The position numbers were made by a program, and so were the translations under genes. From Waddliaceae bacterium (GTDB lineage Bacteria > Chlamydiota > Chlamydiia > Chlamydiales > GCA-2709385), in assembly GCA_002709385.1 (NCBI GenBank), contig PAQS01000001.1, positions 1-39,495 of the forward strand: a stretch of 39,495 nt of DNA. The letters run 5' to 3'. Below are positions 200 to 26,862 of this stretch, in pieces. How positions within the stretch are numbered: position 1 is the first letter of the stretch; each line of letters opens with the position of its first letter. A model generated the notes under the pieces. It had not been told where the DNA came from, ran no database searches, and worked only from the letters and a program-made list of their open reading frames with translations.

Positions 200-1264
200 T
201 TATCCACCACCACCTCTACGGAATTGAGCAAAATCTTCTAAAGAAAATTCCGGTAACTCTGCGGTCTCTCGATTAGTTCGAATAAGATAATGCCTTGCAA
301 ACTCAGCGAAAGGATAGTCTCCACAAGACAAGTGCTGGGACCTCATTGGAACATCTTCAGCACCTAAAGATACTTCTACATCTAGAATATCTCCCTTAGG
401 ACATCGTACATCATTTTTAATCTCATCCCAGGAAATCGATATATCGGAATAAGTCACCCAAATACACTTTCCTGGAGCAAGAGAAATATCCGCTTTTCCA
501 TATAGTTCACCATCATACTTTGTAAACATCGAGTCTAATCCTGAAGGCATCTTCCATGACTGAAAATGTTGATTTTTACTTGTCACACTAATGTATGGAA
601 ATCTTGCTGATCCTCGGCCTGTGTTTCTTATGCCTAATACAACCTGTACTGAAATGCTACGTCCATGTGTCCAACTTCCTCTTTTAATTTTTGCACAAAT
701 TTCCAGTTGAGGATGTGGGCGTTTACCAAATCGATCAGCTATCTCATAATGCTCCATTTTAACAGTAGATTCACCAGAGCGCTTGTAATACCCCTTGACC
801 TTATCGTTTTGCATATTCATCACAGGATCGCCGTCATACTCCGGAACATATACCACCATTACCCCCTGAGTATCATCTTCAGGATCTTTCACAGAGAGGA
901 ACTCTAGCTTTAAATCCGAAGGAGCGAACCAACCATAAACATTTTCACGGAAGTATGAAATATAGCTGTCTACTTTAGGTATTGGAATAATTTCAGAAGC
1001 TCCATCTACCTGACTTTCTTCTGAGGTAGCAATTCCAAATACCAAAACCCCACCCGCAGAATTTGCAAATCCTGAAACCTGTTCACAAAATAATTCTCGA
1101 TCTTTTTTGATTGGTTTTCCTTTGGAGTTGAAATGTTCAATATCTGATTGCTTAAATTCAAGGTAGAGATTTTCTTCTTGTCTTTGCTCTACCCATTTTT
1201 TCAATGTTTCCCACTTTTCTTTCTGTAGCTGTATATAGTAACTTTCTGGTGCATTAACGCTCAT
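200..1264 (-). CDS. Schlafen/AlbA_2-type putative DNA-binding protein
   Basis: 354-aa protein. Residues about 30-175 resemble the AlbA_2 (Schlafen AlbA) domain: an acidic/aromatic entry E36-F-K, then the core V-S-G-F-A-N-S-A-G-G at 63-72 followed by a hydrophobic strand, and a later Y-Y-K-R-S-G segment. The C-terminal half is beta-rich and not recognised. I chose ATG at 1264 because a good Shine-Dalgarno (AGAGGA) precedes it; a longer reading to 1429 would run through the repeat cluster that controls parA and is unlikely. The family occurs in transcription regulators and in defence or nucleic-acid-processing proteins, so the function is uncertain. It is divergent from parA and shares a 182-bp control region with it. 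Confidence 0.75.
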   Translation of the reverse strand: MSVNAPESYYIQLQKEKWETLKKWVEQRQEENLYLEFKQSDIEHFNSKGKPIKKDRELFCEQVSGFANSAGGVLVFGIATSEESQVDGASEIIPIPKVDSYISYFRENVYGWFAPSDLKLEFLSVKDPEDDTQGVMVVYVPEYDGDPVMNMQNDKVKGYYKRSGESTVKMEHYEIADRFGKRPHPQLEICAKIKRGSWTHGRSISVQVVLGIRNTGRGSARFPYISVTSKNQHFQSWKMPSGLDSMFTKYDGELYGKADISLAPGKCIWVTYSDISISWDEIKNDVRCPKGDILDVEVSLGAEDVPMRSQHLSCGDYPFAEFARHYLIRTNRETAELPEFSLEDFAQFRRGGGG

Positions 1265-1353: not shown

Positions 1354-1425
1354 TATGCCGTATGGCTAATACAGCTCGTATGGCATAGTTGTCAAATATG
1401 GCGCGTATGGCTAATATGGCAGTAT
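1354..1425. promoter_or_regulatory. Heptad cluster (TATGGCT/TATGGCR) between AlbA_2 gene and parA
   Basis: Repeated TATGGC cores, mostly as GTATGGCTAATA or GTATGGC, are spaced closely across about 70 bp and overlap the parA promoter. The same heptads, in both orientations, recur in six further places between 4.1 and 10.1 kb. Arrays of short heptads are the classic binding substrate of RHH partition proteins such as omega and ParG. The likely binder here is the RHH protein encoded just after parA, making this an operator and possibly a centromere. That assignment is inference. Confidence 0.6.
1389..1417 (+). promoter_or_regulatory. Promoter of the parA operon
   Basis: A TTGTCA -35 box at 1389-1394 and a TAATAT -10 box at 1412-1417 are separated by exactly 17 bp. 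The -10 box lies within one of the TATGGCT heptads (GGCTAATATGGC), so a protein bound to the heptads would block RNA polymerase. ParA starts 29 bp downstream, after AGGAGAG. Confidence 0.6.
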
Positions 1426-1446: not shown

Positions 1447-2223
1447 ATGCCTGATTCTAAACAAAAGGCTATTGTGGTTTGTTTTAGCAACCACAAGGGA
1501 GGAGTAGGTAAAACCTGCTCAACATGTAATATCGGTGCGGGTATGGCCCGTCAGGGAAAAAAAGTTCTCTTAGTAGATTTAGACCCACAAGCTAACTTAT
1601 CTTTAAGTCTCGGCGTCAGAGACCCCTCACGGTCTATTTATGATGTCCTTATGGGTGAAATGGAAATTTCTAGCACCATTATTTGCGTGAATGAAAACTT
1701 AGATATTATTCCTTCTTCGTTAGATTTAGCTGGAGCGGAAATCGAACTCGCTGCAGAAGCAGGAAGAGAAATGATACTGAGAGAAGCTTTAGAGCCTCTT
1801 TTAAAAAAGTATGACTATATTTTAATTGACTGCGCTCCTACTTTAGGACTTCTCACAACAAACGCTTTGACTGCTGCAGAAGAAGTGTACATCCCTCTCC
1901 AAGCTCAATACTTGTCACTCCAAGGTATAACCAAACTTACCGGAGTTCTAGATAAAATTAAGTCTAGGCTAAACAAGACTCTCAATTTGGGTGGAGTTTT
2001 TCTCACACAGTATGATGGAAGAAAAGTTCTAAATCGTGATATTGCAGATGCCATCCAAGAACACTTTGATTCTTTAGTATTTAAAACAAAGATTAGAGAT
2101 AACATCTCACTAGCGGAAGCTCCTAGTATGGGACAAGATATCTTTCGATATAACTCTAAAAGTAATGGCGCAAAAGACTACGAAGCATTGTGTAGCGAAA
2201 TTCTAACGAAACTAGAGAAATAG
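1447..2223 (+). CDS. parA: ParA partition ATPase
   Basis: 258-aa deviant-Walker ATPase that segregates the replicon. The Walker A motif K-G-G-V-G-K-T is at residues 17-23, with the signature lysine in the deviant position. Walker A' is V-D-L-D-P-Q-A at 43-49 and Walker B is I-L-I-D-C-A-P around 125-131, with D128. It lacks the long N-terminal helix-turn-helix of F/P1-type ParA, so it is the small (type Ib or chromosomal-like) form, whose partner rather than ParA itself represses the operon. The start has a strong AGGAGAG site. The RHH gene follows after 12 bp, and both are probably cotranscribed from the promoter at 1389-1417. Confidence 0.93.
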   Translation: MPDSKQKAIVVCFSNHKGGVGKTCSTCNIGAGMARQGKKVLLVDLDPQANLSLSLGVRDPSRSIYDVLMGEMEISSTIICVNENLDIIPSSLDLAGAEIELAAEAGREMILREALEPLLKKYDYILIDCAPTLGLLTTNALTAAEEVYIPLQAQYLSLQGITKLTGVLDKIKSRLNKTLNLGGVFLTQYDGRKVLNRDIADAIQEHFDSLVFKTKIRDNISLAEAPSMGQDIFRYNSKSNGAKDYEALCSEILTKLEK

Positions 2224-2235
2224 GAATCACTAACT

Positions 2236-2574
2236 ATGGTAAAAAAGAAATTTTCTCAAGGCATCAATGCAATACTCGGAGGAGCAACAACTCCTACCGC
2301 GACTGTAGAAGAAACTCCTCAAGATCTACCTCCACCCCCTCAAAAACCTGCGTCAAAACCAATTTTGGAAACAAAAGTAGCGACGAAAAAAGTTGATTCT
2401 CCTCAAACAAAAGTTACCTTAAGAATCGATTCAGCACTTTTAGACACTGTTAAGGCTGTAGCATATTGGGAAAGAAAAACGATGACCGAAGTTTTCTCTG
2501 AAGCTCTACGTGCTCATTTACAGATCCTCGGAGAGGAATACATTGAAAGTGCAATTTCAGCTCATAAACAGTAA
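2236..2574 (+). CDS. RHH centromere-binding protein (ParB/ParG analogue)
   Basis: 112 aa. Residues 59-98 form a ribbon-helix-helix: a short strand V-T-L-R-I-D, then helix A (S-A-L-L-D-T-V-K-A-V-A), a turn, and helix B (T-M-T-E-V-F-S-E-A-L-R-A-H-L). The first 16 residues (K-K-K-F-S-Q-G-I-N-A-I-L-G-G) closely resemble the N-terminal ParA-activating peptide of ParB proteins (basic, then G-L/I-x-A-L/I-L-G). The middle (20-55) is Pro/Thr-rich and looks like a flexible linker. Seen together, this suggests a ParA-stimulating arm on an RHH DNA-binding core. It probably binds the TATGGCT heptads and represses parA. Position and domain are clear; the DNA target is inferred. Confidence 0.75.
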   Translation: MVKKKFSQGINAILGGATTPTATVEETPQDLPPPPQKPASKPILETKVATKKVDSPQTKVTLRIDSALLDTVKAVAYWERKTMTEVFSEALRAHLQILGEEYIESAISAHKQ

Positions 2575-2591: not shown

Positions 2592-4112
2592 ATGGCCTCA
2601 CATACTCTTGAAAAAACAACGCAGTTAACCCTACACTCAGTGCGCAACATGCTCGGAGATAAAGGACAAACAGAACTTTTCGAGAATCATGACAAAGAAT
2701 TCTCAGAGCATTTTGGAATTGCTTTAAGCGGTAGAATCGAGCGGTTTGGAATAGACCTTTCAGATACCGAATCGAGAATGATCGAAGCTATTTTACATGG
2801 GTTTACTCTTACATCTTATAAAGGAAACCTTGAGTCCAAACCCAAAGAAGAAATATTACAAGAGTCCTATGAGGGAAAACAGCCTCCTACTTTCAAGTAT
2901 ATAGAGCAACTACCACGACTCAGAGCTACTCAATCTGACATATTAGAGTGGGCTGGTATCAATAAAAACAGTATAGCAGCGAAAGTTAGGGCTCTTGAAG
3001 CTCTAACAACACTAGGACGCAAACAATACTGCTTTTTCTACGACAGGCTTGCATTTGATGAGAATCGAATGCCTATGCAAGATCGACATGGAAAATGGAA
3101 AAAAGAAGAAGTGATTGCTGTAGATACCCTGTTTACCATCAAGGAAGTACGTGATCAGGGAAAGGGAGCTCTTCAATACTATGAAATTATCCCAAGTCCC
3201 TTATTTCTAGACCAGAGAGACTCTTATTTTCTCCTCGTACCGAATAACTGGCGTGAAGAGGTACGAACTCTATATGGAAATAAAAAAGCTTCCAGCTATA
3301 CGTTTCGTCTCCTGATGTTCTTGCGGTACCAATATGAAGTAAAAAGGCGAAGTACAAACATCTCCCCTCCCTACGAAATTCGCTGGTCTCCAAAAGAAAT
3401 TGCTACTGCTATTAATATGCCTTCAAGTGTTGTCGAACGCAATCGCAATCGGATGAACACTCTTCTTGAAGATGCTTATGAAGTATCTATTCGATTGGGC
3501 TACTTGAATAGTTATGAGCGCTTAGGCCACCTAGATATTCTCCGTCTACGGGATGACAAATACTATGGATCTGTTAATTCCGTTTTTAACACCTGCGTAC
3601 AGCAACAAAAACCTACAGAAAAACAACATAGCAAAGAAGCTGAAGAACTATTTTCTAAACTCCATGAAAATAAGAAAAAAATAGACCCCAAACACACTCC
3701 TCCCGATGGAAAAGATAAAGAATCTGAAGTATCCACTTTTGATGTGCTCCTCTCAGCTAGGTCCTTTAATGAGATTGCAACATTGATGGACTGGGGATTC
3801 AGTAAAAAGTTTTGGTGCACACGTGTCTCAACTCCCCAAAAAATCCTCAAGAACTTTTCTGATGCATGGATTGAGATGTCTCTAGAAAACTCTCCTGTTT
3901 CTCAAGAAGACAATAAATCCTGGGTCTCTAAAATTCTACAGGACTGTGTGATTTCAAATATTCAAACCAAAGTTGAGGCTCTCAACAATTACCTTGAAAT
4001 CGTCACAGGCCCCCATCAGCCAGTGTGTATCGAATACAACGACAAAGATTTTAAAGAAAAAGTTTTAAAAACATTTAAGCGATACAAGATTTCAATCCCC
4101 TCAAAAATTTAG
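2592..4112 (+). CDS. Probable plasmid replication initiator
   Basis: 506 aa, third gene of the par block. No family is recognised with certainty. The central region (about 190-320) reads like a Rep_3-type winged-helix initiator: an 'L-F-L-D-Q' and 'Y-F-L-L-V-P' strand region, then Y-T-F-R-L-L-M-F-L-R-Y-Q helix, then W-S-P-K-E-I-A-T-A-I-N-M-P, which looks like a recognition-helix segment. The last 150 residues are lysine-rich and less ordered. The setting supports the call: it follows ParA and RHH, and a regular 5-copy iteron array lies about 1 kb downstream. There is no clear Shine-Dalgarno before ATG 2592. It could instead be another plasmid-borne DNA-binding protein. Confidence 0.55.
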   Translation: MASHTLEKTTQLTLHSVRNMLGDKGQTELFENHDKEFSEHFGIALSGRIERFGIDLSDTESRMIEAILHGFTLTSYKGNLESKPKEEILQESYEGKQPPTFKYIEQLPRLRATQSDILEWAGINKNSIAAKVRALEALTTLGRKQYCFFYDRLAFDENRMPMQDRHGKWKKEEVIAVDTLFTIKEVRDQGKGALQYYEIIPSPLFLDQRDSYFLLVPNNWREEVRTLYGNKKASSYTFRLLMFLRYQYEVKRRSTNISPPYEIRWSPKEIATAINMPSSVVERNRNRMNTLLEDAYEVSIRLGYLNSYERLGHLDILRLRDDKYYGSVNSVFNTCVQQQKPTEKQHSKEAEELFSKLHENKKKIDPKHTPPDGKDKESEVSTFDVLLSARSFNEIATLMDWGFSKKFWCTRVSTPQKILKNFSDAWIEMSLENSPVSQEDNKSWVSKILQDCVISNIQTKVEALNNYLEIVTGPHQPVCIEYNDKDFKEKVLKTFKRYKISIPSKI

Positions 4113-4133: not shown

Positions 4134-4372
4134 TGCCATACTTGACATACCTGCCATATCAGCCATACATCTGAGGATATTGCAGAACAAGTAGAGCAAG
4201 GATCTTGGATTGCTCCAATTCTAAAATCCCTCAATCAATTACAGGATCCTAAACACTCATCGTTTCTAAAAAATGCAACAAAATGTGACTGGGTGACATA
4301 TTAGCCATACCTGACATATTAGACATACTATATTAATGAGCCATACTAGCCATATCGGACATACCATATGGC
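4134..4372. repeat. Two heptad clusters with one iteron (non-coding)
   Basis: Inverted AGCCATA/GACATA heptads occur at 4134-4170 and 4294-4372, with one full iteron TGCAACAAAATGTGACTGG at 4274-4292 leading directly into the second cluster. This iteron-then-heptads order is the same as at 5368 and 9049. Between the clusters (about 4172-4308) a frame without an obvious start (beginning E-D-I-A-E-Q-V-E-Q-G-S-W) reads like a fragment of protein sequence and ends at a TAG inside the repeat. It may be a gene relic. Confidence 0.65.
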
Positions 4373-4607
4373 AAAAACCACTGAACCCACTAAATATTTG
4401 CACTATGAAGATACAAACCCCACGACCCTCTTATTAACTATGCAACAAAATGTGACTGGAAAACACACTAGCCATTTCGTATGTATGAACCATAGTATAT
4501 GGCTTATACAGCCCGTATGGCGCGTATGGCTACTGCTTATTTTTATGAATTCCAAAACTTTAGAAGAACTGGAATCCTCAATAAGAGAACGTCGAAATCC
4601 GGCTTGA
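4368..4607 (+). CDS. Small hypothetical ORF built partly on repeat DNA
   Basis: 79-codon frame. Residues 9-31 (K-Y-L-H-Y-E-D-T ... L-L-L-T-M-Q-Q-N-V-T-G) match a 24-codon frame just after the 1033-aa gene (8997-9071), and the M-Q-Q-N-V-T-G part is simply the iteron read in one frame. The middle is heptad repeat DNA in translation. Only the last 20 residues look unlike repeat. There is no good ribosome site. It may be a chance frame through repeats, or the end of a mobilised gene fragment, so I hold it at low confidence. Confidence 0.25.
   Translation: MAKTTEPTKYLHYEDTNPTTLLLTMQQNVTGKHTSHFVCMNHSIWLIQPVWRVWLLLIFMNSKTLEELESSIRERRNPA
4441..4536. repeat. Iteron followed by heptad cluster
   Basis: A complete 19-bp iteron at 4441-4459 is followed by ACTAGCCAT, TATGGCT, CGTATGGC and CGTATGGCTA heptads to 4536. 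It is a diverged member of the composite unit seen best at 5368 and 9049. Confidence 0.6.
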
Positions 4608-5126: not shown

Positions 5127-5228
5127 TGCAACAAAATGTGACTGGTTTTGCAACAAAATGTGACTGGATCTGCAACAAATTGTGACTGATTGCAACAGAA
5201 TGTGACTGATTGCAACAGAATGTGACTG
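5127..5228 (+). repeat. Iteron array, probable replication origin
   Basis: Five direct copies of TGCAACAAAATGTGACTGG or close variants start at 5127, 5149, 5171, 5191 and 5211. The spacing of 22, 22, 20 and 20 bp is about two helical turns, so the sites face one side of the DNA, as in Rep-binding iterons. The last three copies are degenerate (AAATTG, then twice CAGAATG). An A+T-only stretch flanks them at about 5082-5100. Four single copies lie elsewhere (4274, 4441, 5368, 9049). Origin function is inferred from the geometry and the nearby initiator gene. Confidence 0.7.
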
Positions 5229-5247
5229 AAAGCCAGCTCTTATGCTT

Positions 5248-5283
5248 TGTATGTATGGTATGGCTAGTATGGCTAGTATGGCT
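5248..5283. repeat. Heptad cluster next to the iteron array
   Basis: Overlapping direct copies of TATGGCTAG (GTATGTATGGTATGGCTAG, then AGTATGGCTAG) follow the last iteron by 20 bp. They are the same heptads as in the parA promoter, which puts a probable partition site right beside the probable origin. Confidence 0.6.
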
Positions 5284-5367
5284 TTTTTATATCTATATGA
5301 TTTGGGTAGATAAGTACTAAACACCAATGAAATAAAAATTCTTTTATTGAGAATAGATTCGGAAAAA

Positions 5368-5480
5368 TGCAACAAAATGTGACTGGGTGACATACTAGCC
5401 ATACCATACATATAGGTAATACTATGTGGCTAGTATGGCTAGTATGGCTGATTACTAAAATAAGCTCTTAATTTGATTGG
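5368..5480. repeat. Composite unit A: iteron plus heptads
   Basis: An iteron at 5368-5386 runs straight into GACATACTAGCCATACC, a GGTAATACTAT core, then TATGGCTAG copies and TGATTACTAAAA, ending with TAAGCTCTTAATTTGA. The order and most bases are shared with unit B (9049-9195) and unit C (9971-10113). Inverted heptads sit left of the GGTAATACTAT core and direct ones right of it, so the unit is a large imperfect palindrome. Confidence 0.7.
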
Positions 5481-5889
5481 AACTCTTACGAAGGACAAAG
5501 ATCGCATAGTTTTTCTATCTTCTCATTTTTTGAGAGGCTAGACCTTTCCATATGAATATTTCCATTAAGACGGTTTTACCGTCAAAGAGTCAAGGTGGTA
5601 TACTATGTAATTGTCTATATGCTTGATTATTAGTGTGTTTGATTGTTAATCGATTTAATTGAATTGCCATTAAGATGGTTTTTCCATTAAGACGGATTTT
5701 TTTGAATTAAAATATTCTTACAACCCTGAAATTAATGATTATATTTCTAATATTATATCATAATAAAAACTTTTTTATTTATAGTTAATTTTTACGGCTG
5801 TGGTGTAAAAAATTAATCGTTAAAAAAGGTTTTATAGTAAAATAATAAAAAAGTTTTTGATTATAATTTTTATATAATTTTTATCTGAT
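5481..5889. other. AT-rich leader of the 1033-aa gene with short repeats
   Basis: No gene is seen. Three copies of CCATTAAGAYGG lie at 5562-5573, 5667-5678 and 5684-5695. The first overlaps a perfect palindrome GACGGT-TTT-ACCGTC (5569-5583). From 5700 to 5889 the sequence is very A/T rich, with several possible -10 boxes (TATAAT-like) close to the ATG at 5890, but no matching -35 stands out and there is no Shine-Dalgarno. The repeats are candidates for operators of the downstream gene. Confidence 0.45.
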
Positions 5890-8800
5890 ATGACTAAAGT
5901 TGTCTATTCCACTTCTCAGCTCCTTGAAGAGCTCAAAAATCAGTCGATGGATGTGCGTGTTGAATCAGTCAAGGTCCATTGGCCAGAAAGTGTTTCTGTT
6001 TGTTCAGATGCAATACACGGCAAGTTAGAACGAATAGTTCGTATCAATGAACAAGTAAACTTATTGTTAAGTAACGGTAAAGAGATTTTATGGGAACGGG
6101 AAGTGATATTCCAAGGAGAAATTGGTCAAAATGACGAAGATCTTGCTGCTAGAGCTTGGCTTAGTACCCATGACCAGGAAAATGAAGTATCGCACCGTTT
6201 GAAAGAACTAAGTAATCGTATTCTCAAAACACCTTCAGACGTAAAAACGGAAAAAAAAATTATTGAGTTGGGGAATTTAGAAACTCAGAAAAAAACTTCA
6301 ATTTTGCCCGAATGGGTTTTGAATCTTTTTTACAAAAGTCCCTTTTTGTATAGAAGTGTTCAAGAAACAGCTCTAAAAAAAATAATACCCTCTAAGTGTT
6401 TAAAAGACTGGGGGGCAAACGATCTCTTAGTGGCATCCCAGGAAATAGGTTCTATAAATAAAAAAAACTCCACATTGAGTTCTCAAGAGAGTTTGCACAT
6501 AGATCGGATTTTGAATCATTTGATTGAAATATCCGTATCTTTATTGGCCGATTATGATTCTTCGATTCCTTATGAGTTTTTGTATCAACCGAATTTTTTA
6601 CTTTATTATGGGAATCAAATTCTTAAAGTTGCGCAAGAAAATGGCTCTATTCAAAATGGAATAAGCTTGAACTCTCCAGATTTGGTCGAGATTTTTCAAC
6701 GAAGGTTATCCAATAGAATACTAATAAGAGATGGTGGAAGAAAAAATCTTTTTGAAAGTAGTAGGTCGCAACAATTAAGCGAAGAACTAATATCCTCTTT
6801 TAAGGTTTTAGAGAAAACTGGGCGAATTCCTGACCCGGATTCTGATTATATGAAATGGAAACACGTTTTAGCGGGTAACTTAGATGCGATAAGCCAAAGT
6901 GCCATTGAAAACTTGGAAGAACTTAGAGGATATTGTTTAGACACCTTTTTTTCTACACAAGATATTTGGCAGTCTATATTTGATGGAGAAGACATCAGCA
7001 CATCACAGTTCGAAGAACTAACTATTGGTTTTTATAAAATCTGGAAAGAAAAAGTAAAAAATACAAATTCGCTAATAAAAAATGAGATAAAGAATTGTAA
7101 TATTTTAATATCTACTGAACTTCCAGGTTTCAGTAAAATGAGCTCTACAGATCCACTACAAGAAATCATTCAAAAAGAGGTTAATGACTTATTAAACGCT
7201 AGAGCTTCCTTTGACTTTCGACAATTCTTCACAATGTCTCTCTCTCCGGAGAAAGAAAAAATATGGGAGAGCTTCTTTGTTCTTTTATTAGAGAATTTGT
7301 GGAAAAGAGGCCCTGAAATAGAGTTGAATGGTGCCATTTCTAATGACGATATCAGTATGTATACGGATCAATATGCAGAGGCCAGAGATTGGATTGACAC
7401 TCTTAGTCAATACAGTGGGAAAAATCAGGAATTCTTTGATCGATTAAATAAGATGGTTCAAATCAACGAGCCTGAAATTGGTGAAGAAGTCTATCGATCA
7501 GCCAACCGAAAGCAGATTCAGTGGGAATGCAAAGGTATCTTCTCCAACGAAGAAGCTGAAGCATTGTATCTTCTATCTCTTTCTTTATCGGATAGCTCTG
7601 AAATCCTCAATAAATCAGAGTTGGAAAGTATACGTATTTTCATTGACGAACTATGTATAGATAATTCGGATTTAAATAAACGCGTCGCTGCAATTCTGAA
7701 TGAAGAGGATGGAGTAAATTTTCTAGGCATCAGCGAGGAAGCATTGCATTTGTGCAGAGCTTTAACCTTTAAATCATCATATTTTAAATATGTTGAAGGA
7801 ATTACATCCAGATTGGAAAACATTGATCGCTTGTTATCCGAAAATAAACCAGCAGAACCTGAAGAAAGAATTAGACACGAAGACCTCCATATTATTAATT
7901 CTTTGAGGGGGCTTTTTTTCTATCGCAGGTACTCCAGTGATTTAGCACCAGTGGAAAAATTAGCTGATTGTGGTTTGAAGTGCTTTCCTGAACTACTTCA
8001 AATTCGAGAAAATTTGCTTACTTGTACAAATGTCATTGACCAGTTGGCTTTTTCTTTAGAAAATGAATCGAAACAAACATTTCGAAACGGTGATTTCTTT
8101 GCTGATAGTTCAATAAATAAACTGATAAAAAAGAAAGATCACGAACTCCCACTTACATCCCTTACTGAAAGCCTAACTCAGCGATACGGTCATACAGGAA
8201 TTATTGTAAATAGAATAGATCAGGATAGATTATCATCTGGTGAGGTTTGCGTTACTTATACGGAAGATCTTCTGGTATTGCCATTCGGTCTTGCTGGATC
8301 TGACTATTTTCGACTTGTTCCCAGTGAACTTATAAAAAAGAAACCTCATCGAGAGATTCTTTCAAAAGTATTCTCTAATGAATCCTGGGAAAAACAGCTT
8401 CAAAGTAGGTACGAAGAAATTATCGAATGGTCCCAATCAGGGGATAATATTCAGGCGCAAGAAGCAATTCGAAACGTTAAACTAGGATTGCAAAAAACAT
8501 GGTTTCTTCACAAGTTACAAAGTTGTAAGGATAAATTGCTTTTCTGGAGAAGGAAGTCTTGGTCAAGAGCTCGAAGAGAAGCTGTTTACCATAAAATTTT
8601 TGATGAGAACAAATCTAATGAGGTGCATATGTATTGCAGTTCTCATTCACTACAGGTATCGCTGAGCGCTCTTCACATACTTAATCAAGAGGTTGCAGAA
8701 AAATATCTCTCTCTACTTCAAGACGAGGGAAAAAAGGAAGAAGCTAAAAAATTTGAAAAAGAGTATGTACTGGGTGATAAGATGCTCATTCAAATGCCGG

Positions 8801-8991
8801 TAAAGTACAGTAAATACATAGATAACGTTCCTCCAGACAGCATGCTGAAAAGATTAAAAAATTCTGGTGCCTTACAAAAACTTCCACGTCTGGATGTTCA
8901 GGAAAGGTATATCGCTCCTCCTCCTAAAAGAAAAGACCTCTTGTTAGATAGAGTCAAAAAGACGCTTAAGAATACCTTTTCAAAAACCTAA
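5890..8991 (+). CDS. Orphan 1033-aa protein, no recognised domain
   Basis: I do not recognise a family. The frame is long, continuous and has normal amino-acid use, so it is certainly a gene. It looks soluble and mostly alpha-helical, with many Leu/Glu/Lys/Ser-rich segments, no signal peptide and no membrane segment. No Walker, nuclease, protease or methylase motif is visible. Residues 1-80 may be a small beta-domain (alternating V-x-V patterns). A separate beta-type segment is around 775-810 (T-G-I-I-V-N-R ... L-V-L-P-F-G-L-A-G). A basic, tryptophan-bearing helix follows near 880-900 (L-L-F-W-R-R-K-S-W-S-R-A-R-R-E), and the tail is Lys/Pro-rich. It stands alone between composite repeat units A and B, in AT-rich DNA. 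A chlamydia-specific effector, a large structural protein or a defence protein are all open; none can be argued from motifs. Confidence 0.85.
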   Translation: MTKVVYSTSQLLEELKNQSMDVRVESVKVHWPESVSVCSDAIHGKLERIVRINEQVNLLLSNGKEILWEREVIFQGEIGQNDEDLAARAWLSTHDQENEVSHRLKELSNRILKTPSDVKTEKKIIELGNLETQKKTSILPEWVLNLFYKSPFLYRSVQETALKKIIPSKCLKDWGANDLLVASQEIGSINKKNSTLSSQESLHIDRILNHLIEISVSLLADYDSSIPYEFLYQPNFLLYYGNQILKVAQENGSIQNGISLNSPDLVEIFQRRLSNRILIRDGGRKNLFESSRSQQLSEELISSFKVLEKTGRIPDPDSDYMKWKHVLAGNLDAISQSAIENLEELRGYCLDTFFSTQDIWQSIFDGEDISTSQFEELTIGFYKIWKEKVKNTNSLIKNEIKNCNILISTELPGFSKMSSTDPLQEIIQKEVNDLLNARASFDFRQFFTMSLSPEKEKIWESFFVLLLENLWKRGPEIELNGAISNDDISMYTDQYAEARDWIDTLSQYSGKNQEFFDRLNKMVQINEPEIGEEVYRSANRKQIQWECKGIFSNEEAEALYLLSLSLSDSSEILNKSELESIRIFIDELCIDNSDLNKRVAAILNEEDGVNFLGISEEALHLCRALTFKSSYFKYVEGITSRLENIDRLLSENKPAEPEERIRHEDLHIINSLRGLFFYRRYSSDLAPVEKLADCGLKCFPELLQIRENLLTCTNVIDQLAFSLENESKQTFRNGDFFADSSINKLIKKKDHELPLTSLTESLTQRYGHTGIIVNRIDQDRLSSGEVCVTYTEDLLVLPFGLAGSDYFRLVPSELIKKKPHREILSKVFSNESWEKQLQSRYEEIIEWSQSGDNIQAQEAIRNVKLGLQKTWFLHKLQSCKDKLLFWRRKSWSRARREAVYHKIFDENKSNEVHMYCSSHSLQVSLSALHILNQEVAEKYLSLLQDEGKKEEAKKFEKEYVLGDKMLIQMPVKYSKYIDNVPPDSMLKRLKNSGALQKLPRLDVQERYIAPPPKRKDLLLDRVKKTLKNTFSKT

Positions 8992-8996
8992 AATAT

Positions 8997-9071
8997 ATGA
9001 AATATCTGCACTATAAAGAAACATCCTCCATAGATCTCTTATTAAATATGCAACAAAATGTGACTGGTTGA
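8997..9071 (+). CDS. 24-codon frame matching the start of the 4368 ORF
   Basis: Directly behind the 1033-aa gene, M-K-Y-L-H-Y-K-E-T-S-S-I-D-L-L-L-N then M-Q-Q-N-V-T-G and a stop. It is homologous at DNA level to 4392-4460. There is no ribosome site of its own. It is better viewed as an extension of the repeat unit than as a proven peptide; it is listed because two diverged copies keep the same frame. Confidence 0.2.
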   Translation: MKYLHYKETSSIDLLLNMQQNVTG

Positions 9072-9195
9072 CATACTAGCCATACCTTACATACAGGTAA
9101 TACTATATGGCTAATATGGTTGATGTGGCTAGTATGGCTGATTACTAAAACAAGCTCTTAATTTGAGCTGAATCGTAACTGTAGCTCTTTTTGGT
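9049..9195. repeat. Composite unit B: iteron, heptads and RHH-gene 3' end
   Basis: Iteron at 9049-9067, then the same inverted/direct heptad block as units A and C. From 9071 it parallels unit C (from 9971) at exactly 900 bp distance with few changes. Its right end (about 9150-9195) copies the last ten or so codons of the minus-strand RHH gene at 10076 (K-E-L-Q-L-R-F-S-S-N-stop), so B is a truncated duplicate of the region now at C. The GAGCT...AGCTC-TTTTT arrangement at 9164-9191 could also act as a weak terminator. Confidence 0.75.
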
Positions 9196-9243
9196 TTAAT
9201 TATTTAATTTAAGAAAGTGAAGTAGACCCAAATAATAATATGC

Positions 9244-9867: not shown

Positions 9868-9970
9868 AGCAACTCATTTAGTTTTTCTAATTTATTTAAC
9901 TAATTAAGTATAACTGTTTTTTTGTAAAAAATAAAATATTTAACAGGTGTATTCTAATGATGTTATTATC

Positions 9971-10113
9971 ACATACTAGCCATACCTTACATATAGGTAA
10001 TACTATGTGGCTAATATGGTTGATGTGGCAAGTATGGCTGGTATGGCTGGTGTGGCTGATTACTAAAACAAGCTCTTAATTTGAGCTGAATCGTGACTGT
10101 AGCTCTTTTTGAT
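9971..10113. repeat. Composite unit C: heptads plus 3' end of the RHH gene
   Basis: It carries the same block as A and B but lacks the iteron (it begins TATCACATACTAGCC). It has one more TATGGCTGG heptad than B. Its right end is the genuine 3' end of the RHH gene (stop at 10076-10078). It lies about 100 bp before the start of the zinc-ribbon gene on the minus strand, so the heptads may control that gene. Confidence 0.7.
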
Positions 10114-10483
10114 TGGATATTTCTTCCTCAATGAGTTTTTCAAAAATAGCAGACATGATCCAACGTCGAGTAGAAAAAGTATAATTTTTCGTTTTTAGTT
10201 CTTCGATTTTTTTATCTAATAGCTCTTTAATTTCCTGAGAAAGATCTACTTTGATAGTGCGCATTTTAAATTCTCCGTCGGGATCATTTTTCTCACTATC
10301 ACGTTTAAGCTTTTCCTCTATAGCTTCTTGCATCCATCCAGAAACCGAAACATCTTCTTTTTCGAGTAGTTTTCTGACAGATCTTATTTTGCTAATTCTG
10401 TCTGCTGTTGCTCGATCAATAGTCATCGCATACTGGTATATGGAGTCTTTTTGACATCGTTTTTCGTCTTCATCGTTTGTCAT
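10076..10483 (-). CDS. Double RHH protein, TraY-like relaxosome or tra regulator
   Basis: 135 aa. ATG at 10483 follows an excellent AGGAGG site, so a longer reading toward 10972 through the traA promoter region is rejected. Two RHH-like halves are visible: residues about 20-58 (A-T-A-D-R-I-S-K-I-R ... V-S-G-W-M-Q-E-A-I-E-E-K-L) and about 70-120 (T-I-K-V-D-L-S-Q-E-I-K-E-L-L-D ... R-W-I-M-S-A-I-F-E-K-L). F-plasmid TraY is also a 131-aa tandem RHH protein, which binds oriT and the tra promoter just ahead of traA. Here the gene is divergent from traA, 244 bp away. The tandem fold and position are seen; TraY function is inferred. Confidence 0.65.
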   Translation of the reverse strand: MTNDEDEKRCQKDSIYQYAMTIDRATADRISKIRSVRKLLEKEDVSVSGWMQEAIEEKLKRDSEKNDPDGEFKMRTIKVDLSQEIKELLDKKIEELKTKNYTFSTRRWIMSAIFEKLIEEEISNQKELQSRFSSN

Positions 10484-10727
10484 TATACCTCCTCGATTCG
10501 CCGGAATATAAAAGCATAGATTTATGAAAAAATCAATCTGAAACACATACAGATTAGATAAAAATACACTTAAAAGTGGTTCTGAAAGGGTTTTTTCATT
10601 GTTTTCTTTCGTCTCTAAAGTAACAAAAAAATAATTTCGAGAATAGGCAAGAAAAAACTTCAGTTTATAAAATATGTTGTATAAATTATGGAATAAGCGG
10701 TAAAGCTTAAAGTTAAAGGAGAATTTA
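10484..10727. promoter_or_regulatory. Divergent control region between RHH gene and tra operon
   Basis: No gene. AT-rich. It holds an inverted repeat CACTT-AA-AAGTG near 10568-10579 and a TATAAA at 10680-10685 that could be the -10 of the tra promoter, without a convincing -35. A strong AAAGGAG precedes traA. The RHH protein would be expected to bind here. An oriT could be here or outside the window; I see no nic motif I can name. Confidence 0.45.
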
Positions 10728-11042
10728 ATGAAAACATCGATGATCACCGGTGCTATGTTAGCGGCAATGGCTTTTGCACCTTCATTAATCATGGCTAGTA
10801 CTGGAGAGGATTTTGGATTTACTGCGGAAGCTACGAAAATCCAAGATTTCTTATTCGGTCCTGTAGTACGTATTGCAGGGATTGCCGGGGGAGCGTATGG
10901 ACTGATGCAGTCTATTACAACCTCGAGTGTATCTCCGTTAATGATGTACGGAGCAATTGGTGTTGGTGCCAACTTAGTTCCGAAGTTTATTAATGGCGTA
11001 TTCGACGTATCAGGAATGCTAGTTACTGCAATCGGGGGCTAG
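10728..11042 (+). CDS. traA: TraA-like pilin precursor
   Basis: 104 aa, first gene of the transfer operon. The signal peptide (K3, hydrophobic 5-20) ends around I-M-A at 21-23. The mature part has two hydrophobic segments rich in Gly and Ala (about 46-62 and 71-85) separated by a short loop, the layout of F-type pilins. The size (about 80 residues mature) also fits. No separate TraQ- or TraX-type processing gene is seen nearby. Ribosome site AAAGGAG. Identity rests on topology and on position directly before traL. Confidence 0.75.
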   Translation: MKTSMITGAMLAAMAFAPSLIMASTGEDFGFTAEATKIQDFLFGPVVRIAGIAGGAYGLMQSITTSSVSPLMMYGAIGVGANLVPKFINGVFDVSGMLVTAIGG

Positions 11043-11046
11043 TACG

Positions 11047-11346
11047 ATGAGGCAACATGATGAAAGTAGAATCATCAAAACTCTCGACAATCAACCTAGA
11101 GTTCTTTTTTGGGATGTAGATGAATTCCTTGTTCTTTTTCTTCCTCTTCTTTTGGGGATTGGAATAGGGAGTATTCTCATCATGTTGCTTGGTATTCCTC
11201 TAAAGTTTGTTTTCTCAAAGACAAAATCGAAAAGAGGTGTTCCGTTAAAACACCGAATGTACTGGATGCTTCCTTCTGATTTTCTACGAAAAAGAAAAGG
11301 AATTCATAATTTTCCTGACTCTCATATTCGGGATATTGTTCTATGA
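11047..11346 (+). CDS. traL: TraL, pilus assembly membrane protein
   Basis: 99 aa. It has the family's N-terminal signature: ...L-D-N-Q-P-R-V-L-F-W-D-V-D-E-F, followed by one long hydrophobic segment (about 28-55). TraL sits in the inner membrane with TraE and is needed for F-pilus assembly. It follows traA by 4 bp, and its stop overlaps the traE start (ATGA). Confidence 0.85.
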   Translation: MRQHDESRIIKTLDNQPRVLFWDVDEFLVLFLPLLLGIGIGSILIMLLGIPLKFVFSKTKSKRGVPLKHRMYWMLPSDFLRKRKGIHNFPDSHIRDIVL

Positions 11347-11897
11347 ATGAACTAATGATGGAAAGAGATTTAAATAATCTCAGGAAGCAGAGAAACGCAC
11401 TTACTGCTATTTGTACAGTGTTATCTCTTTCTGTAATTTTACAGGGAGTTTTCCTTTTTAAGAAGCAAGATCGAGTTGTTATTGTTCCTCCTGTCGTTAA
11501 CCAGTCGTTTTGGGTAGATAATCAACATATTTCCGTTTCTTATCTTGAACAGATGGGAGTTTTCCTTGGGGAACTACTTCTTTCTAAATCGTATCATTCT
11601 TCTCTTAAGCAAAGAGAAATTCTCTTAAAACATGCCAGCCCAGGTTTTGCAACGAGTTTTAGAAAAAAACTCCTAGAAGAAGAAGCAAAATTAAAGAATC
11701 AAAATTCATCCTATGTTTTTCATCCAGAGTCGGTAAGAGTCAATCAAAATAAGAGACTCGTTTTATTAGAAGGGAATAGAGAGGTGTATGTAAATGGAAA
11801 GCGTATCTCAACACAAAAAGAGACATATGTTTTGCATTTTAGTTACTTAGGAGGACGCCTTCTACTCGATGGGGTGAGTCAGGGAGAAAACAAATGA
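11343..11897 (+). CDS. traE: TraE, VirB5/8-like T4SS inner-membrane protein
   Basis: 184 aa, close to F TraE (188). N-terminal cytosolic basic segment, one membrane helix (about 20-42), then a periplasmic domain with the TraE pattern V-V-I-V-P-P-V-V-N-Q-S-F-W-V and the ending ...Y-V-L-H-F-S-Y-L-G-G-R-L. It overlaps both neighbours by 4 bp (ATGA), so translation is coupled. Confidence 0.9.
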   Translation: MNELMMERDLNNLRKQRNALTAICTVLSLSVILQGVFLFKKQDRVVIVPPVVNQSFWVDNQHISVSYLEQMGVFLGELLLSKSYHSSLKQREILLKHASPGFATSFRKKLLEEEAKLKNQNSSYVFHPESVRVNQNKRLVLLEGNREVYVNGKRISTQKETYVLHFSYLGGRLLLDGVSQGENK

Positions 11898-12583
11898 TCC
11901 GATATATTTTTCTAGCTTTATCTTTGCTTACTTCTAGCCAGCTTTTTTCGACATTGATTCATGAGATTGATACTTGTAAGGCTTTGAATTGTTCATTCAG
12001 CATTAAGCAGCATAATCGAATTATCGTGGATGGAGGGCTTGTAAAAAAGCTTATCTGTCCTGAAGGGGTTTTTAATTTTCGTTTAGATGCTGATAGTGGA
12101 CAAGCCTTTGTATTGGTGGAGAATATTAGTAATGAACCAACTTTAATTTCTGTAATTACAGATGAAGGAAGAGTTCAAGACTTGTCTGTCACTTTAGAAA
12201 ATAAACCATCTGAAGTGATTGTTCTTAAAAGTTCTAATTCTGAAGAGCAAGCCCCATCTGTATTAGAAGAAGACGTCGATCATGAGATGGTATCTATATT
12301 ACTGAGCTTAATGGATGGAACAATTCCGGAAGGGTATAGCCCTAGAGAAGTGAGTTCATCTGATGATCGTTCGCAGAGAAGTTTTCGCTTAAAAGCTAAA
12401 ATCTGTGTAGAGGGACCTTATGAAAAGATCTATGCTTATGAGCTGGTTAATCTTTTAAATGTTGATCTCCATATATCAGAAGAAAGTATTTCGAATACTT
12501 CAGATCTCTGGATCTATCTTGAAAGCAACAAAATTCCTCCTCGAAAGTCAAGTAGAGTGATTATTTCTAGGAGGAAAAATTAA
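11894..12583 (+). CDS. traK: TraK, outer-membrane-complex secretin-like protein (VirB9 analogue)
   Basis: 229 aa with a signal peptide (about 1-19) and a beta-rich periplasmic body. Similarity to TraK is weak but recognisable in the C-terminal region (V-E-G-P-Y-E-K-I-Y-A-Y-E-L-V-N-L ending W-I-Y-L-E-S...P-R-K-S-S-R-V-I-I). TraK, TraB and TraV build the core channel across the envelope. The place between traE and traB is canonical. ATGA overlap upstream, TAATG downstream. Confidence 0.8.
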   Translation: MIRYIFLALSLLTSSQLFSTLIHEIDTCKALNCSFSIKQHNRIIVDGGLVKKLICPEGVFNFRLDADSGQAFVLVENISNEPTLISVITDEGRVQDLSVTLENKPSEVIVLKSSNSEEQAPSVLEEDVDHEMVSILLSLMDGTIPEGYSPREVSSSDDRSQRSFRLKAKICVEGPYEKIYAYELVNLLNVDLHISEESISNTSDLWIYLESNKIPPRKSSRVIISRRKN

Positions 12584-13758
12584 TGCTATCTTCCTCTAAA
12601 AAGAATCTATTATCTCAAAAAAGGCTATTAGCTCTCTCTTCTGTAGGGGCATTTATATTAATAGGAGGACTTTCTTATTTTCTCGTCTTTGACGACGGAT
12701 ATTCTCCAGAAGTTAAAACTAAAGATAGAATGGTTGATTTACCTGGAGATCGTGTAGATGCTCAAGAGATATGGATGTCTCAAGTTCAGAGTGAAAACCG
12801 TTTTTTCGAGCAAAGACTGAAATACATAGAAGAGTTGTTACTTAGCTCAAGCAAAAGAGAAGAAGAAAAAAACAAAGAAAGTGAAGAGCTGAAAAGAGAA
12901 ATACATAGGCTCAGAGAAGAGTTAAGTTTTCGAGAAAAAAACAAGCTTGATAAAGAACACAAAGAAGGGGCTGTTCTTGCTCCTTTCGGTTCTATGACAC
13001 CACCTATAGAAACCGAATTCTCCTCACCTAAAGCTCTTTTGGAAGTTGTTATGGACGAGTCCAAAAGAAACAAGACGAAACATGTTGATGAGGCGATACC
13101 TGCTGCGACGACAGTAAAAGCAATTCTCGTTTCAAGTGTAGATGCTTTGTGTGGTGTTGGAGCAAGTAGTGATCCTCAGCCAATTAAGCTTCGCATACTA
13201 GGTGATGGAAAGCTTCCTAATGGTGTGAGGGCAAAACTAAAAGGGGGGCTTATTGTTGCAAGTGCATATGGTCACCTTTCTTCAGAAAGAGTTTTTATAC
13301 GAATAGAGAGACTAACTCAGACAAAAGCAAATGGTAATTTTATTGAGACAGATGTCACAGGTTTTGTCACAGGTGAAGATGGTAAGTATGGATTAAGAGG
13401 GATCGTAGTGGATCGTTCAGACAAACTCGTAAAAAATGCTTTTATTAGTGGGCTATTTGGAGGTGTAAGTCAATTTCTAAGTACAACACAAAATGCTCAG
13501 GATATTAGAGACGCGACAAGTGGGCTACCGAATAGTTTACGCTACGACATTCTAAAAGACGGGGGATTAAAGGGTGTTGGTGGTGCCATGGATAAACTTT
13601 CAGATTACTACATTAAAAGAGCTGAGCAACTACAGCCTGTGATTCAAGTGGCTGCGGGAAGAATAGTCGATATTACGTTTACATGTGGTGCTGAATTAGG
13701 AGATTTGCACACCAAAGATAAGGTTCGAAAAATAAGAGAGGGCAATCATGAAATATAA
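12583..13758 (+). CDS. traB: TraB, channel scaffold (VirB10 analogue)
   Basis: 391 aa, shorter than F TraB (475). Membrane helix at about 14-35, a strongly charged coiled coil at about 75-125, a variable linker, then the conserved VirB10-like barrel domain from about 165 (A-T-T-V-K-A-I-L-V-S-S-V-D-A ... L-R-G-I-V-V-D-R) to the end. The shorter length comes from the linker. It spans the periplasm and links inner and outer membranes. Its end overlaps the next gene by 11 bp. Confidence 0.9.
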   Translation: MLSSSKKNLLSQKRLLALSSVGAFILIGGLSYFLVFDDGYSPEVKTKDRMVDLPGDRVDAQEIWMSQVQSENRFFEQRLKYIEELLLSSSKREEEKNKESEELKREIHRLREELSFREKNKLDKEHKEGAVLAPFGSMTPPIETEFSSPKALLEVVMDESKRNKTKHVDEAIPAATTVKAILVSSVDALCGVGASSDPQPIKLRILGDGKLPNGVRAKLKGGLIVASAYGHLSSERVFIRIERLTQTKANGNFIETDVTGFVTGEDGKYGLRGIVVDRSDKLVKNAFISGLFGGVSQFLSTTQNAQDIRDATSGLPNSLRYDILKDGGLKGVGGAMDKLSDYYIKRAEQLQPVIQVAAGRIVDITFTCGAELGDLHTKDKVRKIREGNHEI

Positions 13759-14332
13759 AATGATTTTCACGTTTCTTTTTTTCTCTTCTTTTATGGGAGC
13801 TTTGGAAAGGTTGCCTGAGCAATATTGTATTTCCTATGGAAAGAAAGATGCTTCTTTAGAAATCATTGAGTATTTTTCTTTTTCCTGTCCCCAATGCATT
13901 CGCTGTTTTACTCGTGAATTTGAGGGAATCAAAGATAAATATATCGATTCAGGACTTATTCGTTGGGTTTTCCATCCTATGCCAATGGATTTATCTACCA
14001 TTCAAGCAATGCATTGCTTGTCTCTTCTGGATGGCGATAAGAAAAAGATATTTTTGGAAGCAATATTACCAGAAATGGATGGGCAGAGACCAGATCTCGC
14101 AGTTGCTCTTATGAAACGAGCTATGGATTTCTTCTCACAAGAAGTCATAGATCTTGAAAACCTTGAGCTTCTCGGTGAGACGAGTACCTTTCAAGATGCT
14201 TTTTCTTATGTAAATCAAGATAACACAGTAGAAGCTGTTCCTTCTTTAGAAGTAAACGGAAAGCAACTCTCTGAGATACCCACAGAATATACGGTAGAAC
14301 GTCTATGGAATCAAATTAAGGAGACACTATGA
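13748..14332 (+). CDS. DsbA-like periplasmic thiol oxidoreductase of the Tra operon
   Basis: 194 aa with a signal peptide (1-18). The thioredoxin-type active site is C47-P-Q-C50 in F-S-F-S-C-P-Q-C, and the cis-proline is in E-A-V-P-S-L near 265-275 of the DNA-coded C-terminal third (residues about 160-165). The DsbA/thioredoxin fold is typical of the DsbA_2/Thioredoxin_4 group. The likely substrates are the cysteine-rich TraN, TraU and TraH encoded downstream. Its placing inside the operon, between traB and traV, resembles DsbC/TrbB carriage in other F-type systems. Overlap ATGA with traV. Confidence 0.8.
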   Translation: MKYKMIFTFLFFSSFMGALERLPEQYCISYGKKDASLEIIEYFSFSCPQCIRCFTREFEGIKDKYIDSGLIRWVFHPMPMDLSTIQAMHCLSLLDGDKKKIFLEAILPEMDGQRPDLAVALMKRAMDFFSQEVIDLENLELLGETSTFQDAFSYVNQDNTVEAVPSLEVNGKQLSEIPTEYTVERLWNQIKETL

Positions 14333-14724
14333 GACAGATATCTATTTATCTATGTTTTTTAGCTTTTCTCCAAGGTTGTGCTACTTACAAAAACCGTTTT
14401 GATTGTCCTACACCGACAGGAGTAGGATGCCATTCTGTATCTGAAATAGAATCAATGATTATTGAGCGTGAAGGTGAAGAAGATGTTTTCTATCCAGATG
14501 AAAGTAAGCAGGTTTTTTCTAATAAAGATGAGCGTAGCTGTTGTAGAAAAGCAAGTAATGTACTTTCAAAGGATCCTTCTATTAATTCAGGTAAAGTTAA
14601 ACGTATATGGGTTGCTCCTAGAAAGAAAAAAAGCGGGATATCAGTAGGAGCTCATTACGTACATTTTACTGTTGATCCTCAAGACTCATGGTTGCTCTTA
14701 ACTCAAGGAGAAGATCATGAGTAG
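14329..14724 (+). CDS. traV: TraV, outer-membrane lipoprotein (VirB7 analogue)
   Basis: 131 aa. Lipoprotein signal with the lipobox L-Q-G-C17, then the family cysteine motif (F-D-C-P ... G-V-G-C-H-S-V-S-E). It anchors the TraK/TraB core in the outer membrane. F TraV is 171 aa, so this is a short member. ATGA overlap upstream and 8 bp overlap with traC. Confidence 0.85.
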   Translation: MRQISIYLCFLAFLQGCATYKNRFDCPTPTGVGCHSVSEIESMIIEREGEEDVFYPDESKQVFSNKDERSCCRKASNVLSKDPSINSGKVKRIWVAPRKKKSGISVGAHYVHFTVDPQDSWLLLTQGEDHE

Positions 14725-17191
14725 TTTACAATTCCTTAGTCAAATTGGGGCGAAGATCCTTTCAATTTTCGGAGAAAAAGAAGAATCCCCTAGAGAGCAT
14801 TATGATTTTTCAGAAGTGTTTTCAGCAGACAAGATTTCAGATCTCCTTCCTTATCAATCTTATGATCCTGAGACAGAAATCTTTTTTTGTAAGAATAGCT
14901 TAGGTGTTGTTTTAGAGGTTCTTCCTTTAGTAGGTGTGGATAATTGTATTCACAAAGAGATGCTTAGTCTTTTTGAAGAAGTCATGAAAGAAGAATCAAA
15001 CTTACAATTTCTTCTATGGGCAGATCATCGTGTTGCTCATTCTTTAGATCTATGGAAGTCTTCTCGAGAAAAAGGAGGCGGGATATTTCAGGATCTAGCA
15101 AAAAAGCGATCTGAGCATCTTTTATGCTCAAAAGACGTCAATCCTCGGATGTTTCGTTTGATTATTTCTTATTCGGAAAAATCGAAAAGGTCTGCCATTT
15201 CTCAGCAAATCCAAGAAATTGCTTCGATTAAAGATCGCATGATGAAAATTTTTTCTAGTCAGAGTCATTGTTTTTTTTGGACTGCTGATGATTTTGTTCG
15301 CTCTTTAAGTTCTTTGGTGAACTTTGATACAGAGGATAAGCACCCTCCTAAAAAATCGTGGGATTCAATGAATCTTCTTTCAGAGCAGCTATCTGGAGAG
15401 GGGGGAATTTCTGTAAAAGAGGACGGGTTAAAATGGGGAAAGAACTGTCATTTTAAATCATATAGAGTTGCAGATTACCCTGATTCATGGTCTTTAATTG
15501 GGATGTCACAACTCATTGGTGATGTTTTTAAAGACTCCTATCGAATTCCTTGTCCTTTCGTTTTGCACTATGGAATACATTGTTCAAATCAAGATGAGGC
15601 GAATAAAAACTTTCGTCGTAGGATGCATCTCGTTGAAAATCAGGGAAAGTCTTTAACTCTAGTCCGCATGATACCTGATTTAGTCACAGAACTTGAAGAG
15701 TGTGACTTTGTACGAAGGAGAGCATCTGAGGGAACTCGTTTTGTACAAGCTCAGTTCGGGGTGGGGATATGGTCCACAGGTGACTTATTAGCCGATGCAG
15801 ATCAGAGTGTAAAAAGCCTATTTAGAATCAATCGCTTCTCTTTAATTGAGAATACTTTTTTACATTTACCACAGTATCTTTCTTTTTTGCCTCTTACATG
15901 GGGAGAGTACCAGAAGGACTTGGATAAGCTTTCTTTATTAAAAAGTACGCTTTCTTGTGAATCAGCGAATTTACTGCCTATTCAAGGAGAATGGACAGGT
16001 ACAAAAAGCCCAGGAACTCTTCTTCTTGGAAGAAGAGGACAGATTTTAAATTGGAATCCATTTGATAACCAAAAAGGCAATTATAATGTTGTTGTTGTGG
16101 GGAGAAGTGGTTCGGGAAAATCCGTATTTATGCAGGAGGTGCTTGTTAGTACCTTAGGTGTTGGGGGAAAAGTATTCATTATTGATGTAGGGAGAAGTTT
16201 TGAAAAAACAGCGGAAGCTTTGTCTGGCCAACAAATTGAATTCGCTCAAGATAAACCTGTCTGTTTGAATCCTTTTAGCCAAATTCCAGATGACCCTCAT
16301 GAACGTGATCAATCCTTAGGTATGATTAAATCCATTGTTGCCACTATGGCAGCCCCGAGTAAAGGAACCAATGATTTTGAAAATGCTCTCATTGAAAAGG
16401 GGGTTCGATATGCTTGGGAGACGAAGGGACGTAGTGCAACGATTAGCGATATATCTAAGTATTTAGAAAATATAGATGATGGCCGAGCAAATTCCTTGGC
16501 CATTATGTTGACTCCTTATATCACGGGAGGAATCTATTCTAAGTATTTTGAAGGCGAAAATAACGTCAGTTTCACGAACCCTCTGGTATTAATCGAATTA
16601 GAAGAGCTTAAGGAAAAAAAAGATCTTCAATCTGTTGTTTTACAGATGTTTATCATGACGATTACAAACCATACTTTTCTTGGGGACAGAAAAACTCCTT
16701 TTCATATCTGCATAGACGAGGCTTGGGACCTTTTAAGAGGGGGGCAAACGGGAGAGTTTATTGAAACTTTGGCTCGTCGCCTAAGAAAGTACAATGGTTC
16801 TCTTGTAATTGGAACCCAGAGCGTGGATGATTTTTATACTACTCCAGGAGCATTAGCTGCTTTTGAAAACAGTGACTGGATTTGTCTTCTTACACAGAAA
16901 AAAAGTTCGATTAAGAGACTCGCTGAAAGTGGAAAAATAGATTTAGATGCTGGAAAGCAAATTGCTTTAGAGAGTGTTACCACTCAGCATGGAAAATTTA
17001 GTGAAGTGATGATTTGTGATGCTGATGGAGGATACGCAATTGGGCGTCTCATTTTAGACCGTTTTTCCCAACTACTCTACTCTACTCAAGCTAATGAATA
17101 CGCTCGTATTCAAGAATTACGAAATACCGGAATGAGTACAAGCGAGGCAATTACGCTAATAATCCAAGAAGAAGGGAAAAAAAATGCTTAA
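14717..17191 (+). CDS. traC: TraC, pilus assembly ATPase (VirB4 family)
   Basis: 824 aa, near F TraC (875). The N-terminal 400 residues are the TraC/VirB4 N-domain; the C-terminal RecA-like motor has Walker A G-R-S-G-S-G-K-S at 462-469 and Walker B with I-D-E at 666-668, followed by the D-E-A-W-D-L-L pattern common to VirB4. It drives pilus assembly from the inner membrane. Overlaps both neighbours by 8 bp. Confidence 0.95.
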   Translation: MSSLQFLSQIGAKILSIFGEKEESPREHYDFSEVFSADKISDLLPYQSYDPETEIFFCKNSLGVVLEVLPLVGVDNCIHKEMLSLFEEVMKEESNLQFLLWADHRVAHSLDLWKSSREKGGGIFQDLAKKRSEHLLCSKDVNPRMFRLIISYSEKSKRSAISQQIQEIASIKDRMMKIFSSQSHCFFWTADDFVRSLSSLVNFDTEDKHPPKKSWDSMNLLSEQLSGEGGISVKEDGLKWGKNCHFKSYRVADYPDSWSLIGMSQLIGDVFKDSYRIPCPFVLHYGIHCSNQDEANKNFRRRMHLVENQGKSLTLVRMIPDLVTELEECDFVRRRASEGTRFVQAQFGVGIWSTGDLLADADQSVKSLFRINRFSLIENTFLHLPQYLSFLPLTWGEYQKDLDKLSLLKSTLSCESANLLPIQGEWTGTKSPGTLLLGRRGQILNWNPFDNQKGNYNVVVVGRSGSGKSVFMQEVLVSTLGVGGKVFIIDVGRSFEKTAEALSGQQIEFAQDKPVCLNPFSQIPDDPHERDQSLGMIKSIVATMAAPSKGTNDFENALIEKGVRYAWETKGRSATISDISKYLENIDDGRANSLAIMLTPYITGGIYSKYFEGENNVSFTNPLVLIELEELKEKKDLQSVVLQMFIMTITNHTFLGDRKTPFHICIDEAWDLLRGGQTGEFIETLARRLRKYNGSLVIGTQSVDDFYTTPGALAAFENSDWICLLTQKKSSIKRLAESGKIDLDAGKQIALESVTTQHGKFSEVMICDADGGYAIGRLILDRFSQLLYSTQANEYARIQELRNTGMSTSEAITLIIQEEGKKNA

Positions 17192-23484: not shown

Positions 23485-23492
23485 GGGGATTG

Positions 23493-26261: not shown

Positions 26262-26273
26262 TTAGGTGAAGCT

Positions 26274-26852: not shown

Positions 26853-26862
26853 AGATTTAGTC

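Follow-up and report, generated by a model that had tools for sequence, protein, structure and literature searches.

The delta/omega partition system of plasmid pSM19035 (type Ib) consists of a small ParA and an RHH-type adaptor with an N-terminal tail, which acts on several dispersed sites made up of contiguous direct and inverted repeats, one of them over the parA promoter (PMC9499535, PMC5016525). Six such parS sites, built from 7-10 contiguous repeats, overlap promoters; one omega dimer binds to each 7-bp repeat irrespective of its orientation, and activation of the ParA ATPase needs at least four contiguous units, whereas three plus three units with a gap fail (PMC9499535). In addition, omega controls copy-number genes (PMC9499535). 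The ParF-ParG-parH system of TP228 likewise combines a ParA-RHH operon, repeats upstream and an adaptor with an N-terminal tail, its centromere parH being one continuous site (PMC5016525). Further systems to be compared are PrgP/PrgO of the enterococcal plasmid pCF10 and RepB/RepC of pAD1. RepC of pAD1 binds 8-bp TAGTARRR repeats near its rep gene. In a survey of chlamydial plasmids parB homologues were lacking (PMC7846284), and for Pgp6, action together with ParA is only presumed (PMC7143637).

Here, we describe a parA-adaptor-rep operon and eight arrays of a 9-bp repeat in a 39,495-bp stretch (the window) of a 60.6-kb contig from a Waddliaceae bacterium, an environmental relative of Chlamydia. 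With a probability of roughly three in four, we read them as an omega/ParG-like type Ib partition system, in which the adaptor binds the arrays as a dispersed centromere and represses parA. Since chlamydial plasmids have been reported without parB (PMC7846284), the locus is valuable in offering a concrete candidate adaptor, a predicted centromere and an exact repeat unit on a plasmid backbone equipped with a conjugation system as well. The operon and its upstream neighbour are arranged as follows:

200-1264, minus strand: Schlafen/AlbA_2 gene, divergent from parA
1389-1417, plus strand: promoter-like TTGTCA-17-TAATAT, 9/12 matches to the sigma-70 consensus
1447-2223, plus strand: ParA ATPase, 258 aa, KGGVGKT Walker motif near residue 17, PF13614 at E=2.5e-58
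2236-2574, plus strand: predicted RHH-type partition adaptor, 112 aa, starting 12 bp downstream of parA
2592-4112, plus strand: Pgp2-like replication protein (Rep), 506 aa, C-terminal part weakly like DnaD helicase loaders

In ParA, PF13614 covers residues 10-180 and an N-terminal DNA-binding domain is missing, in keeping with the small size of type Ib ATPases. Together with the adjacent downstream adaptor and the repeats over the parA promoter, this is the composition of a type Ib ParA system, of which the locus is likely a further member. In contrast to pSM19035, parA and adaptor share their operon with rep.

The adaptor is likened to omega of pSM19035 by its features, not by direct sequence comparison. 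Its profile matched only two PDB entries, E73 (E=0.007) and SvtR (E=0.15), both RHH-type proteins. A low-confidence fold model contains two helices (residues 66-79 and 83-99), as expected for RHH, and a fold search with this model gave weak matches only, several of which are RHH proteins. Sequence and model weakly suggest an adaptor of the RHH type. The sole NCBIfam model matched is that of the DNA segregation protein PrgO (NF041284; E=4.5e-4, residues 45-101), which connects the protein to PrgP/PrgO of pCF10; however, the score of 20.4 bits is well under the curated cutoff of 100 bits, and host phylum and 9-bp repeat also set the locus apart from pCF10 and from RepB/RepC of pAD1. Pfam gave no match, and the canonical ParB nuclease and HTH domains are absent from the 112 residues, of which only the N-terminal peptide is ParB-like.

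As established for Spo0J, the N-terminal peptide of ParB activates ParA. The adaptor N-terminus, KKKFSQGINAIL, resembles this peptide, and its pattern KKxFxxGxxxxL recurs in related adaptors and resembles the N-termini of 17 chromosomal ParB proteins encoded next to related parA genes. Scored against the ParB peptide, the adaptor of the related contig L078 reaches 20 bits (0/2000 shuffles as high), and the window adaptor a modest 2.5 bits (13/2000 shuffles as high), a value attained by 2 of 64 ORF N-termini, one of them the adaptor itself.

Between 1361 and 10059, the repeats are grouped into eight arrays of 4-10 units that each keep a single 9-bp register, with 56 units in total when at least four of six core matches define a unit (F, forward; R, reverse; dash, slot without a scored unit):

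A1, 1361-1423, plus strand: seven slots, F F F - F F F, on the parA promoter
A2, 4135-4170, minus strand: four units, all reverse
A3, 4295-4375, mixed orientation: nine slots, R R R R - R R R F
A4, 4471-4533, mixed orientation: seven units
A5, 5232-5285: six units
A6, 5389-5451, mixed orientation: seven units, R R R R F F F
A7, 9070-9141, mixed orientation: eight units, R R R R F F F F, duplicate of the A6 block
A8, 9970-10059, mixed orientation: ten units, R R R R F F F F F F, duplicate of the A7 block without the iteron

The unit is the nonamer NNNTATGGC (consensus TAGTATGGC). The initial annotation had described heptads, a reading ruled out by the 9-bp register, because exact copies lying less than 90 bp apart form 34 pairs, every one of them spaced by a multiple of 9 and only 2 by a multiple of 7. 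Clusters in both orientations are present at or near all seven additional coordinates that this annotation had listed, and the core TATGGC is enriched over shuffled sequence, with 33 copies in the window versus 11.4 +/- 3.4 (0/100 shuffles reach 33). Core positions carry 0.9-1.7 bits compared with 0.1-0.9 bits in the spacer. Most arrays contain both orientations, forward and reverse units sharing a common register within the array, and in the later arrays the orientation runs from reverse to forward. Contiguous scored units in register number six or more in A4-A8 and reach four in A2 and A3, while A1 is made up of three plus three units split by the -35 slot. The repeats differ from pSM19035 in their 9-bp unit with a TATGGC core (7-bp WATCACW there) and in their eight arrays, most of them near replication iterons, and from TP228 in the longer regular 9-bp arrays and in a dispersed centromere instead of one continuous parH.

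These arrays are specific to this region. In a leave-one-array-out scan of the 60.6-kb contig, with the profile learned from the other seven arrays, each array scores 28-47 bits and other sequence at most 7-11; for A6, A7, and A8 this test is not independent, since these three are duplicates of a single block. Across the 3.15-Mb genome, TATGGCNNNTATGGC occurs nine times, always on contig 1 between 1397 and 10047, while the reversed control pattern gives 0 occurrences and phased TATGGC pairs are found nowhere outside the arrays. The shared block of roughly 150 bp is present in three copies (5363-5506, 9044-9196, 9944-10114) that flank two accessory genes; identity is 87.8% between 5363-5476 (A6) and 9044-9166 (A7) and 85.1% between 9071-9193 (A7) and 9971-10111 (A8), and indels between the copies, where they fall inside arrays, are multiples of 9 bp. 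The copies possibly mark insertion of cargo by recombination.

A1 lies directly upstream of parA, across its promoter, where the -35/-10 pair placed within the repeats by the initial annotation was found at 1389-1417. The -35 element fills the sole degenerate slot of A1, the fourth (GTTGTCAAA at 1388-1396), and the -10 element extends from the spacer of one unit into the core of the following unit. Judged from this geometry, a protein filling A1 would cover the parA promoter.

The remaining arrays surround a region that resembles a replication origin. Rep (2592-4112) is related to Pgp2 of Chlamydiaceae plasmids and gave no meaningful match in a PDB search; its weakly DnaD-like C-terminus and the adjoining iterons conserved across Chlamydiota suggest that Pgp2 relatives are replication initiators or helicase loaders. 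The iteron is 18 bp long, TGCAACAAAATGTGACTG, and occurs in five tandem and four single copies:

4275-4291, plus strand: iteron GCAACAAAATGTGACTG, starting 20 bp before A3
4442-4458, plus strand: iteron, starting 20+9 bp before the first scored unit of A4
about 5127-5228, plus strand: five tandem iterons at a spacing of 20-22 bp, the last starting 20 bp before A5
5369-5385, plus strand: iteron, starting 20 bp before A6
9050-9066, plus strand: iteron, starting 20 bp before A7

About 1 kb downstream of rep, the five tandem copies constitute a candidate replication origin, with the ~22-bp tandem iterons near rep that characterize iteron replicons. From the start of the GCAACA... iteron to the start of the array, the distance is exactly 20 bp for four arrays and 20+9 bp for a fifth. 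Related iterons are found near Pgp2-like rep genes in L076, L077, L078, L082, and L084 without TATGGC arrays; thus, the iteron goes with Rep, and the nonamer with another component.

The order parA-adaptor-rep recurs in three other Chlamydiota contigs (L076, L077, L078). When repeated 6-mers in the 250 bp upstream of parA were compared with shuffles, the window stood out (z 4.5), as did L077 (z 5.3) and L078 (z up to 6.8), whereas 11 control parA genes, taken from relatives with ParB after parA, showed no repeat excess (z at most 1.4). The L077 repeats are units of the ACATAT type and keep a 9-bp register (z about 8-9). Two of four relatives, L077 and L078, thus carry repeat arrays of their own upstream of parA; the other two, L076 (z 1.0) and L079 (z 0.8), are without clear repeats in the same 250 bp, which counts against the partition reading. 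Position and register are partly common to the relatives and the letters differ, as would be expected for a site that changes with its protein. The layout proposed in the initial annotation, an RHH protein serving as both partition adaptor and repressor, agrees with gene order, RHH-type domain, ParB-like peptide, A1, and two of four relatives; its omega-type heptad does not hold.

The TATGGC motif itself is not common to relatives across the phylum: phased pairs in other Chlamydiota genomes are at background (0-2 per genome), with the exception of four in G215. The long TATGGC run of G215, the only one in another Chlamydiota genome, was rejected as a homologous array, three of the four pairs being a coding repeat in an ORF encoding MASMASMAS, unlike the intergenic, mixed-orientation arrays of the window. 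Three viral contigs contain a TAGTATGGC pair and none of them an array, relatives of the adaptor and Rep were not found in viral contigs, and a DNA search with the parA upstream region against plasmids returned no match. The closest plasmid relatives of ParA (60-62% identity over about 95% of its length) come from Tenacibaculum, Lawsonia, Flavobacterium, and Adhaeribacter. There, too, a small hypothetical protein with the same N-terminal KKxFxxG and C-terminal domain follows ParA; these adaptors are only about 25-28% identical to that of the window, and the 6-mer test revealed no strong array upstream of their parA genes, a simple AT-rich repeat in Lawsonia excepted.

Further along the window, a gene at 5890-8991 encodes a 1033-aa protein without a match in Pfam, NCBIfam or PADLOC. 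A gene on the minus strand (10076-10492) encodes a 138-aa RHH-like protein with relatives in 18 other Chlamydiota genomes, some of them beside conjugation genes. An F-type conjugation system (TraE, TraB/TrbI-like, TraC, TraU, TraN, TraF, TraH, TraG, TraD-like) extends from 10728 to 28958.

The placement of the arrays bears on another explanation, in which they are mainly transcriptional operators of a plasmid regulon and the adaptor represses parA together with several accessory or transfer genes. In line with this, A1 covers the parA promoter, omega of pSM19035 controls copy-number genes too (PMC9499535), and A8, which alone among the arrays other than A1 precedes a gene start, lies 103 bp ahead of the 9244-9867 gene and encloses a promoter-like site with 9/12 matches (minus strand, 10031-10002); control of this gene through A8 is possible. 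However, A2-A6 are located in non-coding DNA downstream of rep, 439-1720 bp ahead of the next gene, which starts at 5890, A7 is located between the ends of two convergent genes, and promoter-like sites are not enriched in the array region (23 versus 30 expected from shuffles). Only one array sits at a gene's promoter. With five arrays in non-coding DNA and one between convergent ends, the initial claim that several non-par loci come under the same control is mostly unsupported as it was put, and we regard a regulon as unlikely.

It is also quite improbable that a different protein binds the arrays. Rep, for which the nonamers would be secondary iterons, is suggested by the spacing of 20 bp (four of the eight arrays) or 20+9 bp (a fifth) from its type of iteron, but that iteron is a separate motif, kept with Rep in the five contigs without TATGGC arrays listed above. 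As for the 138-aa RHH-like protein, its gene adjoins A8, and this second RHH-like protein likewise counts against the adaptor; yet the 18 other genomes of its relatives contain at most two chance-level phased TATGGC pairs, and the genomes of L077 (G206) and L078 (G171) yielded no relative despite the arrays upstream of their parA genes. The descent of A6, A7, and A8 from one block with accessory genes between the copies might finally indicate tandem or dispersed repeats that lack a function and spread as that block was duplicated. We consider this very improbable, as A1-A5 are separate arrays and A1 lies on the parA promoter, units of both orientations stay in one register with most information in the core positions, and related operons carry different repeats at the same place upstream of parA.

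In the favored partition system, the RHH-type adaptor would bind the nonamers cooperatively, each 9-bp unit, whichever way it points, taking up one dimer. On A1, it would cover the promoter and thereby repress the parA-adaptor-rep operon, while on the other arrays, with their 4-10 units, it would build partition complexes around the origin-like region. Its basic N-terminal peptide would then stimulate the ParA ATPase, so that plasmid copies move apart. By analogy with pSM19035, the three plus three units around the -35 element suggest that A1 probably serves above all as an operator, most of the centromere work probably falling to the strong arrays located downstream of rep and farther along. 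If this holds, RHH-based plasmid sorting can operate on dispersed arrays of a 9-bp unit beside Rep iterons. More doubtful is the idea that the pairs of iteron and array, at their fixed spacing of 20 bp, are composite elements coupling replication and partition, where iteron-bound Rep and adaptor filaments on the adjoining array would contact each other. The arrays might in that case also set copy number or release paired origins.

The element in the window is plasmid-like, and the same 60.6-kb contig contains a second plasmid gene set at 41-48 kb (L081 1603-8520), comprising parA, a 119-aa RHH-like adaptor, an integrase, a Pgp1-like helicase, four 22-bp iterons, and a 581-aa protein weakly similar to the window Rep. 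Possibly, the contig represents a plasmid fusion or an element that has integrated. At its end (1-64), the 9-bp repeat GCAAACAAA is present in seven copies.
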